Positions 1,685-8,705 of a stretch of 64,000 nucleotides of DNA are shown here, one piece after another. The position numbers and the translations under genes are program-made. Source of the DNA: Streptococcus infantarius subsp. infantarius ATCC BAA-102 (GTDB taxonomy: Bacteria; Bacillota; Bacilli; Lactobacillales; Streptococcaceae); NCBI RefSeq assembly GCF_000154985.1, contig NZ_DS572687.1, forward strand, positions 1 to 64,000, in the 5' to 3' direction. Numbering within the stretch: position 1 is the first letter of the stretch; every line of letters starts with the position of its first letter. Below the pieces are notes generated by a model. The model saw only the letters and a list, made by a program, of their open reading frames with translations, did no database searches and was not told the DNA's origin.

Positions 1685-2191
1685 TCAGCTTTGACTAAAT
1701 GCAATCATTTTATCTAGGATTTTAACTAGACGTTGTTCTTGATCTTTAGTCATTTTATCTTTAGTGGCATCATGGTCATCGACCATACCAACGTGAACTT
1801 TAACATCTTCTGAACTATTAATTGCAACGACAAAAGGAACGTATAATTTGTCTTCTTTGGTATAAGTTTGAGAGAATTTTTTCACGATAGCATTGTCAGC
1901 GTCGCTATAATGTTTACCTCGAACATCGACTGTATAGGCTTTACCATGGTCTGCTTGTAATTCCTTGTCTAAGACAGGCAATAACTCAACACACCACGGA
2001 CAGGTTGGAAAGCCAGAATAATACATGCCTTGTTCTTTAGCTTCTAAGCGACTAACCACATCATCTTGATTATCTTTAACCAGCTGAGCCGTTTCATCAA
2101 CATAAGCACTTGTTCCGTTTAATTTATTGGTAACGATATAACTACCACCAAAAATAATCACAAACAAAATGATAAAGAGACCAAGTTTCAC
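1685..2191 (-). CDS. Membrane-anchored thioredoxin-like protein (CPWC)
   Basis: 168 residues: one N-terminal membrane anchor (about residues 4-20), a linker, then a thioredoxin fold with the redox motif CPWC at residues 64-67 and a probable cis-proline loop at LYVPFVV. The topology puts the active site outside the cell. It resembles bacteriocin transport accessory (Bta-type) proteins, which are thioredoxin-like proteins next to bacteriocin genes. It is the last gene of a tight minus-strand operon that begins with a 71-residue peptide containing three cysteines, so I infer a role in making or isomerising a disulfide in that peptide. A general extracellular thiol oxidase remains possible. Confidence 0.75.
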   Translation of the reverse strand: MKLGLFIILFVIIFGGSYIVTNKLNGTSAYVDETAQLVKDNQDDVVSRLEAKEQGMYYSGFPTCPWCVELLPVLDKELQADHGKAYTVDVRGKHYSDADNAIVKKFSQTYTKEDKLYVPFVVAINSSEDVKVHVGMVDDHDATKDKMTKDQEQRLVKILDKMIAFSQS

Positions 2192-2197
2192 AGTTTT

Positions 2198-2572
2198 TTA
2201 TTTTTCACTATTTTTCTCCTTTTGAATCAGTTGAACAATTGACAGTAAAATCACCTCGCCATCTGCTGTGAATGGTAAGAGGTTAAACAGATTCATTAGA
2301 CAAGTTACCTTCAATACGAGGGTGTAGTAATTTAGAGGGATTAAAATGCCAATTAGAGTTAACAGAAATGGTGATATAAAAGCAATTAAGAAATTGTCTA
2401 AGGGACGGTTTTGATTTCTATACTCTACTTGAAAAGCCAGAACACCAACGTGTTTAAAACACGCTTGGTAATGCAATGCTCGTGCCACCAAGTAATGCAA
2501 TATCTCATGTAATCTGACCGCAGCATAAACTGACAGAATCGTAACAACGACTAGAATGAATAACTCAGTCAT
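2198..2572 (-). CDS. Minimal HExxH membrane metalloprotease (M50/S2P-like)
   Basis: 124 residues, strongly hydrophobic with about three or four membrane segments. HEILH at residues 22-26 is inside the first segment, and NLLPFTADGE at residues 97-106 matches the N-x-x-P...DG third-ligand motif of site-2-protease (M50) intramembrane metalloproteases. It is much shorter than typical M50 enzymes. It sits 6 bases before the thioredoxin-like gene and overlaps the upstream gene by 8 bases, so it belongs to the same operon. The inferred job is to cleave the membrane-embedded leader of the 71-residue peptide, or to act on a toxin as immunity. Function is not established. Confidence 0.6.
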   Translation of the reverse strand: MTELFILVVVTILSVYAAVRLHEILHYLVARALHYQACFKHVGVLAFQVEYRNQNRPLDNFLIAFISPFLLTLIGILIPLNYYTLVLKVTCLMNLFNLLPFTADGEVILLSIVQLIQKEKNSEK

Positions 2573-2840
2573 GTTTCTTTTCGCTGAATTTATCAGTGAG
2601 ATAAGTTAAAGCACAGACAAGGCAAAAAGAAATGATAAATGCAATTAATGTTTGCCAAGACAAGCCAAACGTTGTGGAAATATTATGCTCAGTAATTTTG
2701 TTATCAATGGTGATGCCTAACAAAGTTTTTACTGAAGCTGACGATCCGCCAAGCTGAAATAATTTCCAAAGGCTTGTAAACACAACTAAGGCAGCATAGG
2801 TCACTACACTAATCCCAAGACAACGACTAAAATCTTTCAT
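2565..2840 (-). CDS. Small two-helix membrane protein, unknown
   Basis: 91 residues with two predicted membrane helices (about residues 9-28 and 65-85) joined by a polar loop of about 35 residues, and a short charged C-terminus (KFSEKKHD). I do not recognise a family. It overlaps the upstream 62-residue gene by 14 bases and the downstream protease gene by 8 bases, the pattern of translational coupling. In bacteriocin-type operons, genes of this size and topology are often immunity or transporter-accessory proteins; that is only inference here. Confidence 0.55.
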   Translation of the reverse strand: MKDFSRCLGISVVTYAALVVFTSLWKLFQLGGSSASVKTLLGITIDNKITEHNISTTFGLSWQTLIAFIISFCLVCALTYLTDKFSEKKHD

Positions 2841-3015
2841 ATCTTAACCTCCTAAGAAGACTATAGTGAATACCTGCTAATAGGATAATAACTATCAAAC
2901 CCAAGCTCGCGTTTTTCACAACAAGCGTGACTAAGATAAAAACAATCCCTAATAAAAACATTGACGTGATCTCATTGAGATTTCCGCGTGATTTTGGGAA
3001 AAGATAGCCCAGCAT
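2827..3015 (-). CDS. Small membrane protein, unknown
   Basis: 62 residues with two closely spaced hydrophobic stretches (about residues 17-34 and 37-53) and a basic end (RRLRYERF). I do not recognise a family. The ATG at 3015 has only a poor ribosome binding site; a second in-frame ATG 18 codons later would give a shorter protein. It lies 51 bases after the ABC permease gene and overlaps the next gene, so it is probably a real member of the operon and a candidate immunity peptide. Confidence 0.45.
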   Translation of the reverse strand: MLGYLFPKSRGNLNEITSMFLLGIVFILVTLVVKNASLGLIVIILLAGIHYSLLRRLRYERF

Positions 3016-3066
3016 AAAAGCAGATTAAACAAAAGCAACTGACACCATCACTTGGTTAATGGTAGC

Positions 3067-4185
3067 TCAATGAAAGGCAAAGCAAATCAATAAAGATATT
3101 TCCAACAATACAAGAAGTAAATACTGACCAAAGTATTCTTCACATACTGTAATCCTCAGGAGATTATACTGATTTCGGAAATTCTCTGTGCTATCGCCAT
3201 GTGAAAGTAATAATAAGCCATTAAATGCAAGTAATGTTGGTAAGACTGCCAGAACTGCTTTTACACCACTCTGATAAGCCATAATGTCAATAACAATCAC
3301 AGGAAAAATCAAGTAATACCAATTTGTTTTATAACGAAAGGTGACTTTATCAAGAACAGGTACTTTAATAAAGCGACTGCGACTAGTAACTAAAGTGTCA
3401 GCCAAAGGCAAATGTAAAAGCAAATAAACAACGAAAACTAGACAGCCAAAACTACCAAGGAATGCCCCTAGAATCAACTCATGAATGGAAAATGGAGAAG
3501 AAGCTAATCGTGATTCTAGTGCATAACGCCATTGAAAGAAATAAGCCAAACTAGTTATTAAAATTAAATTTGCTAGGAGTAGTTTAATCACAAGCAAGTG
3601 TTTTATCTGATTTTGCAAAAGCCTGTCTAGCCCTAAAGATAAGCATTCTAAGCTGATGATAACAAGAAAGAACGAAAAATGTTGACTAAGGAAAAACAAG
3701 CCAAAATCTCCCACAGAAGTTGTAACCAACTTGATAGCAGGCGTTGCAATGATCATGACTAATTCATAAATCCCAACCATTAACAACAAACGAAACAAAG
3801 AGTAAGCCCTTTGAATATCACGCTTTCGAAATGGTAAAGCTTTAACGAAATACAAAGACGTCTTGTCCAAAGCCAAGGTTGCCTCAACGAAAAGGAAGGG
3901 CAAGCAACCCAAGACAAAAGTATTGCTGAAATAGCTAAAAAAGATTTGCTTTTGCCCTGTTTCCAAAATAGCAAGAGGAACATTTGTTCTGATGGATGAT
4001 ATTTTTGCCAGCTCTTTCATGTTGTAGAGATAATACAAAATATAAAGCAGGCATAGGAAAGTGACAAAGGAACGTCTTACCCATTTTGATTTGAAAATCG
4101 GGCGATTTAAGAAACCTTTCAAAGCATTATTCAGAAACATTGTCATCAAAAGTTGCGTATCTTTGAATGAACGTGATTTTATCAT
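3067..4185 (-). CDS. ABC-2-like transporter membrane subunit
   Basis: Up to 372 residues with about eight to ten hydrophobic segments, and a polar cytoplasmic N-terminus followed by the first helix. It shows no similarity that I recognise to a named exporter, but position directly after an ABC ATPase gene, with their reading frames overlapping, identifies it as the permease partner. The start is uncertain: the first ATG overlaps the ATPase by 59 bases, and ATGs at residues 14 and 16 give smaller overlaps. The pair probably exports, or pumps away, the product of the 71-codon peptide gene upstream. Confidence 0.7.
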   Translation of the reverse strand: MIKSRSFKDTQLLMTMFLNNALKGFLNRPIFKSKWVRRSFVTFLCLLYILYYLYNMKELAKISSIRTNVPLAILETGQKQIFFSYFSNTFVLGCLPFLFVEATLALDKTSLYFVKALPFRKRDIQRAYSLFRLLLMVGIYELVMIIATPAIKLVTTSVGDFGLFFLSQHFSFFLVIISLECLSLGLDRLLQNQIKHLLVIKLLLANLILITSLAYFFQWRYALESRLASSPFSIHELILGAFLGSFGCLVFVVYLLLHLPLADTLVTSRSRFIKVPVLDKVTFRYKTNWYYLIFPVIVIDIMAYQSGVKAVLAVLPTLLAFNGLLLLSHGDSTENFRNQYNLLRITVCEEYFGQYLLLVLLEISLLICFAFH

Positions 4186-4855
4186 GAACAGACTCCGTGC
4201 GTAACACCTCTGCTTTCAATTGACTAGCATCGCCAGTAAAAGGAACTAATTTCCCATTAGACATCAAAAAGATATGGTCACAAAAGTGATTGATTATGGT
4301 CATATTATGTGAAATTAAGACAAAACTGCGATGATCAAGTAAAGCCTGAAATAGTTTTACTGTAATCAAAGTGGTTTCAAAATCCAAACCATTAAAAACT
4401 TCATCTCCCAAAACATAAGGAGCATTTGATAAGACAGCAGCGATAATTTGAACTTTCTTTTTCATCCCAAAAGAATAAGATTCTAAAAGCTGATTCTTAG
4501 CTTCCTTTAAATTATATAATTCAAAGAAAGAATCGACCTTATCAAGGTCTGCATTTTGATAACGCGCCAAAACAAATTGAATGTATTCATCTCCTGTCAT
4601 GTAATCCGGAAGATAAAAATCAGATGGAATGTAAAAGACTTGCTCCTTGAAGGGATCAGATTGATTATGGTGACTATCAATCCAAATCTCTCCTTCACTC
4701 GGGCGTTTCAAACCAACGACACAATCTAAAAATGTCGTCTTACCGCTACCATTAATACCAACAATAACACTCACTTGTCTTTCAGGGAAAGTCACTGAAA
4801 TATCATTTAAAACCAAGCGCTTATATGTTTTAGATAAGTGTTCAATCTTAATCAT
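4127..4855 (-). CDS. ABC transporter ATP-binding protein
   Basis: 242 residues with all nucleotide-binding motifs: Walker A GINGSGKT (residues 34-41), Q-loop region FYIPSDFYLPDY, a degenerate signature SYSFGMKKKVQ, Walker B YVLGDEVFNGLD and the switch His in LISHNM. The overall form is that of ABC-2 exporter/immunity ATPases such as those in lantibiotic and bacteriocin loci. The gene follows the 71-codon peptide gene by 49 bases and overlaps the permease gene. The signature Gly-Gly is replaced by Gly-Met, which is tolerated in this class. Confidence 0.9.
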   Translation of the reverse strand: MIKIEHLSKTYKRLVLNDISVTFPERQVSVIVGINGSGKTTFLDCVVGLKRPSEGEIWIDSHHNQSDPFKEQVFYIPSDFYLPDYMTGDEYIQFVLARYQNADLDKVDSFFELYNLKEAKNQLLESYSFGMKKKVQIIAAVLSNAPYVLGDEVFNGLDFETTLITVKLFQALLDHRSFVLISHNMTIINHFCDHIFLMSNGKLVPFTGDASQLKAEVLRTESVHDKITFIQRYATFDDNVSE

Positions 4856-4904
4856 AAATTCCTTATTCTAACACCTTCTCTTAAAAATAAAAAGAAGAGC
4901 GATA

Positions 4905-5120
4905 TTATTTAGTACAGTTAAATGTTACATGAATAACATCAGGAACACCTAACTTGATTCCACCAGCAAAATTCCCTGATTGTGACGTACAATAAGCCGC
5001 ATAACCAATGACAGCAATGACAGAGACAAGAGCGCAAACTGCCCAAACCCACTTAACAGTCACTTTTGAAGCATATTTAGCTTGCAAAGCAACCAAGTAG
5101 TTATCCATAAATCCCAACAT
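4905..5120 (-). CDS. Candidate bacteriocin-like precursor peptide, 71 residues
   Basis: First gene of the operon. The ATG at 5120 has AAAGGA upstream; an earlier in-frame ATG at 5174 has no ribosome binding site. The peptide has a polar N-terminus (MLGFMDNYLVALQAKYASKV), a hydrophobic helix (about residues 24-43) and a Gly/Ser/Thr-rich tail ending TFNCTK. Cysteines are at 29, 44 and 69; the last two could form a disulfide enclosing a 24-residue loop. I recognise no known bacteriocin family, double-glycine leader or YGNGV box. Its place ahead of ABC, small membrane, HExxH protease and thioredoxin-like genes makes it the likely substrate of the locus. It could instead be a membrane accessory protein. 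Confidence 0.55.
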   Translation of the reverse strand: MLGFMDNYLVALQAKYASKVTVKWVWAVCALVSVIAVIGYAAYCTSQSGNFAGGIKLGVPDVIHVTFNCTK

Positions 5121-5279
5121 AATCTTATGTTTTCCTTTCAACTTTTTAAAAATAAGTGGACAAAAAATGCCCATACAAATGGCAAATCACTCTTATCTAT
5201 CAGGTGTTCTTTTTCGAAAAATAATTACCGATAACGTAAACTATCTAAACAGATTACACTAACATCATATCATCCTAAA

Positions 5280-5313
5280 GTTAAGATTTCTGAAAATTGT
5301 ATATTTTCTTAAC
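5280..5313. repeat. Spaced inverted repeat in divergent promoter region
   Basis: GTTAAGA at 5280-5286 is mirrored by TCTTAAC at 5307-5313, with 20 bases between. It lies in the shared upstream region of the peptide/ABC operon (minus) and the two short peptides (plus). It may be an operator; the spacing would suit a dimer bound two helical turns apart. Confidence 0.35.
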
Positions 5314-5320
5314 AAAAAAA

Positions 5321-5346
5321 GTTTATTTGCGTATTTGCAAATAAAC
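5321..5346. promoter_or_regulatory. Perfect palindrome upstream of the short peptide genes
   Basis: GTTTATTTGC (5321-5330) and GCAAATAAAC (5337-5346) are exact inverted repeats around a 6-base spacer. The right arm ends where the -35 element of the plus-strand promoter should be. No T run follows, so it is an operator candidate rather than a terminator. Rgg binding is an inference from its proximity to the rgg gene. Confidence 0.5.
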
Positions 5347-5364
5347 CGATTTTAATATTTTCGC

Positions 5365-5373
5365 TGATACAAT
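5365..5373 (+). promoter_or_regulatory. Extended -10 of short peptide promoter, no -35
   Basis: TGATACAAT is an extended -10 element. The matching -35 position has no TTGACA-like sequence and instead abuts the palindrome at 5321-5346. This is the usual layout of an activator-dependent promoter. The first short peptide gene starts 31 bases downstream. Confidence 0.5.
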
Positions 5374-5403
5374 GAAGACATAACATTAAGGAGGATACTA
5401 CTA

Positions 5404-5478
5404 ATGCTTAAACTAACCCTTAAACAATTACTTAAAACAGTCGTTCTGGTACTTACATTCTTTGTACATTACCCGTAA
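5404..5478 (+). CDS. Short hydrophobic peptide 1 (24 aa), SHP-like candidate
   Basis: A 24-codon ORF with a strong ribosome binding site (AAGGAGG, 9 bases upstream) and its own promoter. The product starts MLKLTLKQLLKT, with a basic N-terminus, and continues into a hydrophobic C-terminus ending FFVHYP. Size, charge and hydrophobic profile resemble the short hydrophobic peptide pheromones that partner Rgg regulators in streptococci. The acidic residue typical of many SHPs is absent, and no WW motif of ComS type is present. A second, related peptide gene follows at 5605. It could also be a small toxin-like peptide. Confidence 0.5.
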   Translation: MLKLTLKQLLKTVVLVLTFFVHYP

Positions 5479-5507
5479 AACCTATTCAAAATAATCAATC
5501 AGCCCCA

Positions 5508-5553
5508 AGTAATAACATTCATCCCTTCCCCTGCCCTAATAAATGTTATTACT
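5508..5553 (+). repeat. Long stem-loop between the two short peptide genes
   Basis: AGTAATAACATT (5508-5519) and AATGTTATTACT (5542-5553) form a perfect 12-bp stem with a 22-base C-rich loop. No T run follows, so it is not a classical terminator; it may act as an RNA stabiliser or processing site that sets the ratio of the two peptides. Confidence 0.5.
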
Positions 5554-5604
5554 CACAAAACTTATGAATAATACGTAATATATAAAATTTGGAGGATACT
5601 TATT

Positions 5605-5694
5605 ATGTTCACATTGAAAAAAACCGCTAAACAATTGGTTAACTATGCTTTGATTGGTCCTGCTGTTCTTCTCCCCATTATCTTTATGTTTTAG
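5605..5694 (+). CDS. Short hydrophobic peptide 2 (29 aa), SHP-like candidate
   Basis: A 29-codon ORF with GGAGG upstream. The product starts MFTLKKTAKQLVNY and ends LLPIIFMF. It shares with peptide 1 a hydrophobic-basic start, a K-Q-L-[LV] core and an almost identical leader (GGAGGATACT then T/A-rich bases before ATG), so the two probably arose by duplication. The stop codon lies 13 bases from the stop of the convergent rgg gene. Convergent SHP/rgg pairs are a known arrangement in streptococci, which supports a pheromone role without proving it. Confidence 0.5.
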   Translation: MFTLKKTAKQLVNYALIGPAVLLPIIFMF

Positions 5695-5707
5695 AATCCA
5701 GTCAATA

Positions 5708-6580
5708 TCATTTCTCACTATTATTAGTAATTCTTAATAAATTCATCTTGAGATACGAAGCAACTAAAGGGTTCCCAATCTCTTCAACACAGACAATAAA
5801 ATGCTCCAAATCCGATAAGTCATCTGTCCCGTCTTCAAGATTAGCAATTAATTTTTTTAAAAAATTAAGATAAGTCATGGCAAGCATGTCTTGGTAAGTA
5901 ATTATTTTTTCTAGAGATTCAATAAAATAAGTAGCTTGATAAAACTTTCGATAAGTAACCAATAAGACAATTAGGTTTAAGAAAACAACTTCTGCATTTT
6001 TTTTATGACTTGTAAGTGATTGATAAAGCTTATCTCGATCCACAAAAGCTTTTCCCAAAAAAATCAAATCCGACTCTGATAGAATGGACATAGTATTTCC
6101 AAAAATAAATAATTCAAATTCTGTCCATTCTTCAATTTCGTAAAGATACGAAGTCAAAAAATTTGTCTCTTCTTCAGGTATTACATAAGTGGGATCAAGA
6201 TTATAAATATAAGCTTTTATAATCAATCCGTTTAAACGCTCATAAACATCAAAAACTTCAGATCCTTTTTCACTTTCAAGTAAAGCTTTAAGACCTTCAA
6301 TATCTTGTTTGTTATATAACTCAGCTATTTTCGTTGATAATTGAAAATATTTCGGTTCTTGATAGTTATTAATCGCGTGGCCAAATTCTGAGAAGGTCAT
6401 GTGGATTCCTGAGATGGCGATTAAGAGTTTATCTGCGGCAAGCATGGATTGTCCATTTTCAAAACGTGAGAGTTGAGATACAGAGAGGTTTTCTCGTGCA
6501 ACGTCTTTTAGTTTCAAACCACGCGCGATTCGCAGTTCGCGATAAAGTTCACCCAATTGCATTGATTTTTCGAGTTTCAT
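5708..6580 (-). CDS. Rgg/MutR family transcriptional regulator
   Basis: 290 residues: an N-terminal XRE-type helix-turn-helix (about residues 9-60, containing LKLKDVARENLSVSQLSRFENG) and a C-terminal all-helical peptide-binding domain typical of Rgg proteins. The start at 6580 is chosen because AAAAGGAG precedes it; the upstream in-frame ATG at 6625 has no such site. Length matches the family. It converges on the two short peptide genes, which end 13 bases away, and is the obvious candidate to sense them and control the peptide/ABC operon. Its C-terminal codons overlap no other gene. Confidence 0.88.
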   Translation of the reverse strand: MKLEKSMQLGELYRELRIARGLKLKDVARENLSVSQLSRFENGQSMLAADKLLIAISGIHMTFSEFGHAINNYQEPKYFQLSTKIAELYNKQDIEGLKALLESEKGSEVFDVYERLNGLIIKAYIYNLDPTYVIPEEETNFLTSYLYEIEEWTEFELFIFGNTMSILSESDLIFLGKAFVDRDKLYQSLTSHKKNAEVVFLNLIVLLVTYRKFYQATYFIESLEKIITYQDMLAMTYLNFLKKLIANLEDGTDDLSDLEHFIVCVEEIGNPLVASYLKMNLLRITNNSEK

Positions 6581-6809: not shown

Positions 6810-8705
6810 TTACCAAATAATAACTCGATTTTCTGGTGCACGCCACATTGGGTCACCTGCTTTGATGTCAAATTCTTCATGGAAGTCATCGAAGTTTGGC
6901 AAAGTGACATTGGTACGAAGTTTGGCTGGTGCGTGCACATCAATGCTTGCTAGCATTTGCATGTATTCATCACGCGCCTTCATGCGCCAAATGGTTGCAA
7001 AGTTGATAAAGAAATCTCGTGCTGAGAAATCGTCATCCTGTTTTGCTGCTTCAAGCGCACAAGCCACACCACCAAGGTCAGCCACATTTTCAGAGACTGT
7101 CAATTTACCATTGACCTTAGCGCCATAAGAATCTAGCCCATCAAATTGTTCAACGATTTTATCGGTACGTTCCGTGAAGGCTTTGTAATCTGCCTCAGTC
7201 CACCAGTTGTTTAGGCTACCATTTTCATCAAATGATGCTCCATTAGTATCAAAGGCATGTGAAATTTCATGGGCGATAACCGCTCCAATCCCACCATAGT
7301 TAGCAGATGAACTTTGTTCCAAGCTATAAAATGGAGCTTGTAAGATAGCCGCTGGGAAGACAATTTGGTTTTGTTGTGGGTCATAATAAGCATTGACCAT
7401 GTGAGCTGGCATGTGCCATTCACTACGATCAACAGGCTTGTTCCACTTGCTCCAGCTGTGTGCGATAGAAATCTTAGCAAGGTTTTGCGCATTTTCAACG
7501 AGTGACAAAGACTCATTAATGATTTTCTTCGCATAAGTTTCTGGTAATTTTTCCGGATAACCAATGTGAGGCGTGATGACATTGAGTTTGACAATCGCTT
7601 TATCACGTGTTTCTTTAGCTAACCAATCTGCAGATGCGAGACGTTTCTTGTAAACATCAATCATCGTTGCAACCTTATGTTCTACGTCAGCTTTTGCTTC
7701 AGGTGAGAATTTTTGACCTGCATACCAAAGACCAAGGGCTTGGCTATAGGCACCAGATGCTAGATAGTAAGCTGCTTTCTTCTTATCCATGGCTTGTGGT
7801 GTTCCTGAAAGAGCACGACTGTAAGTCCCTGAAAGCACTCGAATCTCATCTGTCAAATAGCTATTATAACTTGTCGCTGCTGAAACAATCAAATCTGCTT
7901 TAAGCAATTCCCAGTTCTTTTCAGAATAATATTCTGCCGCAAATTCTTTCCAAAAACGTTCTTCTGGAACATTGACTTTGTCAGGAATTTCCCCAAGAAT
8001 TTGTGTGAAGATGCTATCCAAAGGAAGATTTGGTGCTAGTTTGGTAAAATCAGCCCAATCATAAGGGTGATAAAGCTTAACATACTCAGAAGATTCTTCG
8101 CGTGACAAGACATATTTAGCTAATTTGGCATCGAGTTCGATGGTTTTATCCAGCAAATCTTTGATTTCTTCTACTGAAAAATCAAATTTTGCTAACAATT
8201 CTTCTTGCATCTGACGCCATGTCGCTAACAATTCTTTACCTTTTTCGTTGTCTTCAGCGTAATAAGTTGTATCAGGCAAAATTGTTCCAGGTGCGTCTGC
8301 CCACAAAACATTAAGCTGCGCATTCATAAAATCTGGTGCCACACCAAATGGAAATTCATTTGGTTTTCCAGCCATTTCAAAATCCGCAATTTGTCCGGCA
8401 AAATCCGCAAAAGAAGACAATTTCTTATATTCTTCAATCAAAGGAAGAACTGGTGCTACACCAACAGCTTCACGTTTTTCATAATCTGATGTCATGCGGT
8501 GGAATTTAACAAAATTTTGCAAAATGCTATCGTCTGGAAGATTTTTACCAGCCAACCACTCATCTGTGGTTGCTAGCATTAAGTCTTCAATCTCATCAGC
8601 TAAATCTGAAAAACCTCCAGTACGCGGTTTATCATCAGGAATGACAGCTGTCTTTTCCCATTCGCCGTTGACGGCTTCATAAAAATCATCTTGGTATCGA
8701 GTCAT
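6810..8705 (-). CDS. pepO: Oligoendopeptidase PepO (M13 neprilysin family)
   Basis: 631 residues, the normal length for streptococcal and lactococcal PepO. The zinc site HEISH lies in VIAHEISHAFD near residue 480, and the third ligand Glu lies in ENVADLGG. The C-terminal family signature VRxxxxxxN is seen as MWRAPENRVIIW. There is no signal peptide, in keeping with a mainly cytosolic endopeptidase that degrades oligopeptides; streptococcal PepO can also reach the surface and, in other species, degrade SHP or XIP pheromones. That known activity is notable because this gene directly follows the rgg/short-peptide locus. A good SD (AAGGAG) precedes the ATG. Confidence 0.95.
   Translation of the reverse strand: MTRYQDDFYEAVNGEWEKTAVIPDDKPRTGGFSDLADEIEDLMLATTDEWLAGKNLPDDSILQNFVKFHRMTSDYEKREAVGVAPVLPLIEEYKKLSSFADFAGQIADFEMAGKPNEFPFGVAPDFMNAQLNVLWADAPGTILPDTTYYAEDNEKGKELLATWRQMQEELLAKFDFSVEEIKDLLDKTIELDAKLAKYVLSREESSEYVKLYHPYDWADFTKLAPNLPLDSIFTQILGEIPDKVNVPEERFWKEFAAEYYSEKNWELLKADLIVSAATSYNSYLTDEIRVLSGTYSRALSGTPQAMDKKKAAYYLASGAYSQALGLWYAGQKFSPEAKADVEHKVATMIDVYKKRLASADWLAKETRDKAIVKLNVITPHIGYPEKLPETYAKKIINESLSLVENAQNLAKISIAHSWSKWNKPVDRSEWHMPAHMVNAYYDPQQNQIVFPAAILQAPFYSLEQSSSANYGGIGAVIAHEISHAFDTNGASFDENGSLNNWWTEADYKAFTERTDKIVEQFDGLDSYGAKVNGKLTVSENVADLGGVACALEAAKQDDDFSARDFFINFATIWRMKARDEYMQMLASIDVHAPAKLRTNVTLPNFDDFHEEFDIKAGDPMWRAPENRVIIW

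Follow-up and report, generated by a model that had tools for sequence, protein, structure and literature searches.

A probable TMcin-type bacteriocin gene cluster, with a broken permease gene and an adjoining Rgg regulator, in Streptococcus infantarius

The window analysed here is a 64,000-nucleotide stretch of chromosomal DNA from a bovis/equinus-group streptococcus, Streptococcus infantarius subsp. infantarius ATCC BAA-102 (contig NZ_DS572687.1, positions 1 to 64,000). It contains a minus-strand operon encoding, in order, a small peptide, an ATP-binding cassette (ABC) ATPase, a permease, a 91-amino-acid (aa) membrane protein, an HExxH protein and a CPWC thioredoxin-like protein. Two short hydrophobic open reading frames (ORFs) on the plus strand are convergent with an Rgg gene. 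A sequence-only reading had described these genes, and the ORFs are present as it described them, but it placed the locus in none of the classes known to it. We conclude that the locus is very probably a streptococcal form of the TMcin-type bacteriocin gene cluster, because its parts match the published TMcin core one-to-one (precursor, ATPase, permease, two-helix protein and a protease of the DUF3267/site-2 protease (S2P) type). The TMcin class was published in August 2025 (PMC12328743), and the claim that the locus is of an unrecognised type therefore falls.

According to a biosynthesis preprint of 2026, the core of a TMcin system consists of TmcA, which has one transmembrane helix and two universal cysteines (C25 and C50), TmcB, the 12-helix TmcC, the two-helix TmcE and TmcP, a PF11667 protease of the site-2 clan; staphylococci add a DsbA-like TmcD (PMC13252029). 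The Staphylococcus aureus peptide is secreted and antibacterial (PMC12328743). The sequence-only reading had proposed a disulfide-bonded, intramembrane-cleaved and ABC-handled peptide; this agrees with the anatomy of the window locus, and for the staphylococcal TMcin each of these features has been shown experimentally (PMC13252029). TMcins came to light through their phenotype, and their authors state that genome-mining tools had missed them, which lends value to a view of their distribution at the sequence level.

The TmcA-like peptide of the window has an N-terminal leader, one transmembrane helix and a 28-residue C-terminal part that begins at Cys44 and contains a second cysteine, Cys69. 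A crude hydropathy scan found a single hydrophobic segment in all three peptides to which it was applied. The two cysteines are 25 residues apart in 22 of the 25 full-length peptides measured, the window's included, and 22 residues apart in the other three; a locus whose contig starts inside the permease gene (G098) and one with a truncated peptide ORF (G252) lie outside this count. If the window peptide is cut at the place equivalent to that in S. aureus, the predicted mature product would have 52 residues, with cysteines at positions 25 and 50. The antiserum peptide of S. aureus TmcA runs from C25 to R52 (PMC12328743). Pfam and NCBIfam searches with 17 members of the peptide family gave best E-values of 0.0026 and 0.0015, both to families with unrelated names, and the best match of the peptide profile in a PDB sequence search (E 0.42) was also unrelated.

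Relatives of the window peptide are 94-99% identical in two genomes (G001 and G062) and 64% identical in a genome of another family (G147); across genera the peptide core is strongly conserved and the N-terminal leader variable. Comparison of the window's peptide gene with those of S. equinus Sb04 or S. vicugnae gave 12-13 synonymous differences and one non-synonymous, and comparison with S. equinus Sb05 gave nine and none. All pairs among these four differ by 1-13 synonymous and 0-1 non-synonymous changes, with a ratio of non-synonymous to synonymous substitution rates (dN/dS) of about 0.02 or less, whereas comparisons with the decayed copy in G001 gave 4-5 non-synonymous differences and a dN/dS of 0.12-0.23. 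The peptide was recognised at 14 of the 15 Streptococcus loci (full length at 13 and truncated in G252; at G098 it lies off the contig), and the same gene order is found in other genera. Because the dN/dS of the peptide is low and the gene order recurs in other genera, the operon is a real and conserved unit, and more than a chance arrangement.

The TmcE-like protein is encoded between the permease and protease genes, where it is conserved, and has two hydrophobic segments; by analogy it would act as an escort. In one genome (G071) a segment homologous to TmcE is fused to the permease C-terminus. Neither the TmcE-like protein nor the permease, the latter represented by three intact relatives, matched any Pfam or NCBIfam family at its curated cut-off. 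In the protease, residues H22, E23, H26, N94, P100, D104 and G105 are invariant in 13 aligned rows. The window protein matches Peptidase_M50 with an E-value of 0.0041, below the cut-off. Two relatives were scanned with DUF3267 (PF11667), and one scored 28.1 bits (L077; cut-off 27.1) and the other 19.9 bits (L060). The only defect of the G230 locus lies in the protease gene, whose frame is uninterrupted through HExxH but is preceded by none of the usual starts ATG, GTG and TTG. At another locus (G252; L061 7979-8881) the protease and the thioredoxin-like protein form one 300-aa ORF, and the rest of the locus is decayed.

The support for assigning the locus to the TMcin class comes from architecture, from motifs and from a single DUF3267 match above the cut-off (L077). 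On its own terms, the sequence-only reading would fail if the genes belonged to a well-known bacteriocin family. The family is indeed a known one, but it is recent, and apart from DUF3267 for one relative's protease it gives no curated Pfam or NCBIfam match above cut-off. Several points weigh against the assignment. The comparison with TmcA, TmcC and TmcE of the S. aureus type member was made by description, and the window's own protease passes neither the DUF3267 nor the M50 cut-off. Crude hydropathy scans gave three strong hydrophobic segments in two proteases and eight or nine in two intact permeases, against four and 12 published helices respectively. The three peptides with a cysteine spacing of 22 form one clade (G017, G030 and G057). 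The order A-B-C-E-P-D seen here also differs from that of the staphylococcal operon, which the preprint writes from tmcB to tmcA, and a set of 72,556 plasmid records, from which the type plasmid may be absent, gave no tblastn match to the peptide of a relative.

By analogy with the staphylococcal system, TmcA would be made as a membrane-inserted precursor, and its two cysteines would be oxidised by the anchored CPWC thioredoxin-fold protein, lying outside the membrane. TmcE would present TmcA to the DUF3267/site-2 protease TmcP, which would remove the leader, and TmcBC would extract the transmembrane peptide and release it. The released peptide would insert into the membranes of rival Gram-positive bacteria and form pores. 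Maturation, export and pore steps have been shown for the S. aureus TMcin, where oxidation is by the DsbA-like protein (PMC13252029, PMC12328743). For the streptococcal cluster these steps, and the antibacterial activity of its peptide, are suggested by the match of parts.

The CPWC protein of the window matches TIGR01295 (PedC_BrcD) with an E-value of 3.1e-6 and 27.1 bits, against a cut-off of 120, and two relatives score 28.9 and 32.4 bits. The CPWC family profile also matches PDB entry 1zma, a pneumococcal 'bacterocin transport accessory protein' (E 2.6e-5). These weak matches are consistent with the relation to Bta-type thioredoxins drawn earlier. Among the matches listed for the window protein and two relatives there was none to the DsbA family, only to thioredoxin-type families. 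A thioredoxin-like gene is present at 14 of the 15 Streptococcus loci (it was not found in G219, and in G281 the first cysteine of CPWC is lost) and at three of 11 non-streptococcal loci (G147, G380 and G947), the other eight having been inspected at the locus only. The active site is CSFC in G147, where the gene is divergent, and CLWC in G947. According to the preprint, the DsbA-type oxidase gene tmcD is missing outside staphylococci, where distantly encoded enzymes or environmental oxidation are offered as the alternative (PMC13252029). We infer that the CPWC protein is the TmcA-oxidising enzyme of the cluster. Most of the streptococcal loci seen, and some others, have a dedicated thioredoxin-fold protein, which goes beyond the published TMcin text.

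The locus might instead derive from another kind of membrane-peptide system, the sporulation killing factor (skf) or an epipeptide system, that has lost its radical SAM enzyme, in epipeptide systems an epimerising one. Likenesses can be found in both: skf combines a precursor and a two-gene transporter with the thioredoxin-like SkfH and one disulfide (PMC8172795), and an M50 protease belongs to the epipeptide system (PMC10885120). However, Pfam gave no radical SAM hit for any of the nine proteins scanned in the region, as the sequence-only reading had maintained, and a sactipeptide or epipeptide reading was rejected on this ground. TIGR04403 matched in neither of two non-streptococcal genomes, a search for which the control genomes, in which the B. 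subtilis skf locus was sought, also gave no locus. The peptide architecture and cysteine spacing fit TMcin, the Skf and Epe proteins being compared by description only. We regard such a derived system as extremely improbable.

The ATPase of the window has Walker A (GINGSGKT) and Walker B (YVLGDE) motifs. Three-frame translation showed that the permease frame is interrupted by two in-frame stop codons. The 62-aa ORF is the C-terminal end of the permease and not a separate small membrane protein, so that only one of the two small membrane proteins counted earlier remains. Uninterrupted permeases of 452, 452 and 455 aa from the equivalent start are encoded in S. equinus Sb04, S. equinus Sb05 and S. 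vicugnae (L031-L033), and uninterrupted copies carrying the full core have a single-chain permease of 449-475 aa. In Sb04 and Sb05 the locus as a whole is intact. The closest genome compared (G001) is also decayed, with ATPase and permease both interrupted and YEILH in place of HEILH in the protease. Because the permease gene is broken, the strain of the window probably cannot release the peptide. A broken permease beside an intact peptide may be tolerated if the peptide is unexpressed or bound by TmcE. Several streptococcal copies, the window's included, are decaying.

The HExxH-protein profile matches 15 of 284 Streptococcus genomes. At nine of these 15 loci all six ORFs are full length, have usual start codons and stand in the order A-B-C-E-P-D; by ORF calls the other six are incomplete or interrupted, in one case (G098) at least partly because the contig ends. 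The permease profile matched 4 of 395 genomes at the level of the order, 7 of 299 at that of the class and 2 of 329 at that of the phylum. Narrower sets gave 4 of 200 (family of G853), 1 of 61 (genus of G380), 1 of 3 (genus of G147) and 9 of 201 (Streptococcus). All these sets overlap, and G001 is counted in several. Two matches in the family of G853 (G1302 and G651; E 3e-5 and 2.5e-4) were judged spurious, as no other gene of the system is found there. The peptide profile matches 7 of 19 genomes of one further genus. Outside Streptococcus, the five core genes from peptide to protease (A-B-C-E-P) stand in order in the 11 genomes examined (G147, G380, G853, G947 and seven of one genus), and G380 and G947 have all six genes. 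In the genus with seven loci, the cluster of L077 and L080 lies near genes that look by eye like tyrosine recombinases, which suggests mobility. A phage origin was rejected, with no match in 50,697 phage records and no viral contig fitting the peptide or permease patterns; a plasmid origin was rejected on the absence of matches in the plasmid records searched above. No earlier description of streptococcal TMcin clusters was found in the literature searched, although the figures or supplementary tables of the founding paper may list them. Neither TMcin nor tmcA occurs as a word in the main text of a 2026 survey of bacteriocins from the rumen, which covers S. equinus (PMC13289728).

In two genomes the transporter is retained at a locus that lacks the peptide. 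G1277 encodes the ATPase, permease and TmcE-like protein, with no neighbouring peptide, protease or thioredoxin-like gene; the family profile found no credible peptide in its genome (best E 0.7), and the protease was looked for at the locus only. G071 encodes the ATPase and a permease of 577 aa with a TmcE-like segment as its C-terminal part (E 4e-21 for that segment). No peptide was found within 16 kb around this locus, and G071 is not among the genus-wide protease matches. It is also not among the peptide matches listed, though a distant peptide is possible, since that search missed the divergent peptide of G057, and for the same reason the search is an insensitive test of absence. Of the 41 matches it listed, six were inspected: three strong ones were kept together with two weak ones with a full operon (G030 and G017), and one more (G019) was dropped. 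The ATPases of both genomes show the Walker A and Walker B patterns. The ATPase signature pattern matches G1277 but neither G071 nor four complete systems. The permeases of G1277 and G071 are 50% and 44% identical, respectively, to those of the nearest complete systems.

These loci bear on whether the peptide is secreted at all. It could instead serve the ABC transporter as a small membrane subunit or as a regulator and never leave the cell, with the protease and thioredoxin-fold protein serving its quality control. The peptide gene adjoins the transporter genes in every complete locus seen, and the C-terminal part of the peptide is cationic in most rows, which under the positive-inside rule would favour the cytosolic side. 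The two genomes that keep the transporter without a peptide speak against such a subunit, and the anchored oxidoreductase and two conserved cysteines point to a C-terminus outside the membrane. Moreover, secretion and antibacterial action are known for the S. aureus peptide, which shares this architecture (PMC12328743). An unsecreted subunit is in our view very unlikely.

On the TMcin interpretation, the simplest reading of the transporter-only loci is resistance to the TMcins of neighbours, the alternative being export of another substrate. As two genomes carry the TmcB-TmcC-TmcE module alone, it is a candidate for self-immunity, which, like regulation, the preprint leaves unstudied (PMC13252029). 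The peptide and protease of the window look intact despite the broken permease, which speaks against such a role. The transporter-only loci make the question of TMcin immunity directly testable.

The two hydrophobic peptide ORFs converge with the Rgg gene as stated in the sequence-only reading, each with a GGAGG site, and the regulator has Rgg_C and TIGR01716 matches. An Rgg-labelled ORF was found at all five bovis/equinus loci (the window, G001, G062, G223 and G224) and at none of 24 other loci labelled (three-row Rgg profile, E 0.01). Rgg as a defining part of the system was rejected, since it is found only in this group. The first 60 residues of Rgg are identical at the five loci; the remainder falls into three types, which track the 28-29-residue peptide. 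From 5583 to about 6300, the window is 0.99-1.00 identical to Sb04 and 0.58-0.84 identical to the other three (150-column windows). Across the larger part of the operon, at about 1850-3790, the window and Sb04 are 0.83-0.96 identical, and S. vicugnae and Sb04, which have different pherotypes, 0.94-1.00. Because the identity patterns of cassette and operon differ among loci, the Rgg ligand domain and the 28-29-residue peptide appear to form a pherotype cassette that moves separately from the operon. One streptococcal group seems to have a quorum-sensing pherotype cassette adjoining a TMcin-type cluster. Judging from position and covariation, expression of the bovis/equinus cluster is probably turned on in response to cell density by Rgg together with its cognate peptide of 28-29 residues. 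The quorum control proposed earlier would apply only to bovis/equinus loci, where an Rgg and an adjacent short hydrophobic peptide vary together.

The 24-residue peptide is nearly constant across pherotypes, ending in PFFVYYP at four loci and TFFVHYP in the window, and may signal to a different, ComR-type regulator. By eye, its usual ending LPFFVYYP resembles VPFFMIYY, listed in a review as the ligand of S. vestibularis ComR (PMC13361665). The dyad upstream of its gene is the single match in the window when up to three mismatches are allowed, was not found in 100 shuffles and is kept in the five aligned loci. A second inverted repeat, at 5508-5553 upstream of the 29-residue peptide (15-nucleotide arms, 93% complementary), could be a terminator or a regulator site.

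Other peptide-sensing regulators stand upstream of the cluster elsewhere. G269 has a ComR_TPR regulator (PF18710, E 6.4e-58; L058 11216-12127) with one 96-aa ORF in between, and G017 has an RNPP_C regulator (PF18768, E 2e-7) in place of the Rgg and short hydrophobic peptide (SHP) pair. A small peptide gene ending in GELYYCRYLK is also found upstream in G017 (the two genes at L038 4135-4320 and 4488-5357). For the regulator next to the G380 locus, nothing beyond a weak helix-turn-helix match was obtained. The competence CIN-box is TACGAATA (PMC6224593). A CIN-box-like sequence, TTTTT[AT]?CGAAT, occurs within 220 bases upstream of tmcA at five of the 15 streptococcal loci, the window included, against 0.0067 expected per stretch; these five are not independent, having about three insertion sites among them, and the same loci served to measure the background. 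In G202 the match lies at the far end of the stretch, and in G252 the start was placed by hand and the peptide is truncated. One locus has a perfect CIN-box upstream of tmcA.

With peptide-sensing regulators adjoining the cluster in three lineages and a core strongly conserved across genera, the product might be thought to be a signalling peptide (a pheromone) and not a bacteriocin. A core nearly identical across genera would, however, make a poor private signal, and in the bovis group a separate SHP-like peptide is already present. The six incomplete or interrupted copies among 15 also argue against a pheromone, and bacteriocin loci are often incomplete or interrupted. We think a signalling role for the product highly improbable. 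For the bacteriocin cluster we propose, tentatively and with rather less than even confidence, that TmcB-TmcC-TmcE also provides TMcin immunity, kept by the non-producers G1277 and G071, and that streptococcal TMcins are run by exchangeable Rgg/ComR/RNPP cassettes and a dedicated thioredoxin-fold oxidase.

The features of the window locus are collected in Table 1. The window shares the genes flanking the locus with S. vicugnae and S. equinus Sb04, and those of one flank with S. equinus Sb05. The sole tRNA gene of the window, tRNA-Cys (gca), lies close by at 374-444. Adjoining the locus at 6810-8705 is a large ORF that looks by eye like an M13-type peptidase, followed up to 10265 by ORFs named by eye as sortase- and pilin-like.

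Table 1. Features of the TMcin-type locus and its adjoining regulator genes, in window coordinates
Feature	Position	Strand	Evidence
tmcA-like precursor, 71 aa	4905..5120	-	ORF; relatives; dN/dS; Cys spacing
tmcB-like ABC ATPase, 242 aa	4127..4855	-	Pfam ABC_tran E 5.2e-21; motifs
tmcC-like permease, broken: ORF 3067-4185 (372 aa) and remnant ORF 2827-3015 (62 aa)	2827..4185	-	three-frame translation
tmcE-like two-helix membrane protein, 91 aa	2565..2840	-	conserved position; crude hydropathy scan
tmcP-like minimal site-2 protease, 124 aa, HEILH and distal N...P...DG	2198..2572	-	motif; weak Peptidase_M50
membrane-anchored thioredoxin-fold CPWC protein, 168 aa	1685..2191	-	weak TIGR01295, 1zma; aligned family
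hydrophobic peptide ORF, 24 residues	5404..5478	+	GGAGG ribosome-binding site; 5-locus alignment
SHP-like short hydrophobic peptide ORF, 29 residues	5605..5694	+	GGAGG ribosome-binding site; 5-locus alignment
Rgg regulator, 290 aa	5708..6580	-	Rgg_C Pfam E 2.3e-29; TIGR01716 E 7e-55
perfect dyad, 10-bp arms, upstream of the 24-residue peptide; possible regulator site	5321..5346	.	motif search

Among known systems, the skf operon of Bacillus subtilis, compared by description, shares with the window a small precursor, an ABC pair, a thioredoxin-like protein and a disulfide, but has a radical SAM enzyme, of which no gene was found at the window locus, and makes a head-to-tail cyclic sactipeptide (PMC8172795). 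The epe/yyd epipeptide cluster, also compared by description, shares an intramembrane M50 protease (PMC10885120). The PedC/BrcD and Bta helpers have the thioredoxin fold and the bacteriocin context in common with the CPWC protein, which differs in falling far below the TIGR01295 cut-off and in standing beside a TMcin-type precursor. Streptococcal Rgg/SHP systems share the arrangement of an Rgg with a convergent short hydrophobic peptide, whereas the window pair adjoins a TMcin-type cluster and is accompanied by the second, near-constant peptide of 24 residues; the available text of a 2026 Rgg/SHP review makes no mention of such a TMcin-linked system (PMC13361665). The closest likeness is to the S. 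aureus G1905 cluster, tmcABCEP with tmcD on plasmid pCT545 (PMC12328743, PMC13252029), which has the same five core protein types as the window. The two have in common a precursor with one transmembrane helix, cysteines 25 residues apart and a 28-residue C-terminal part counted from the first cysteine, as well as a DUF3267/S2P-type protease and a two-helix TmcE. They differ in the oxidoreductase, which in S. aureus is a DsbA-family CPHC protein with its own operon and in the window a thioredoxin-fold CPWC protein in the same operon. The window cluster also differs in being chromosomal, in adjoining Rgg and SHP-like peptides, as in the bovis group, and in having a broken permease.

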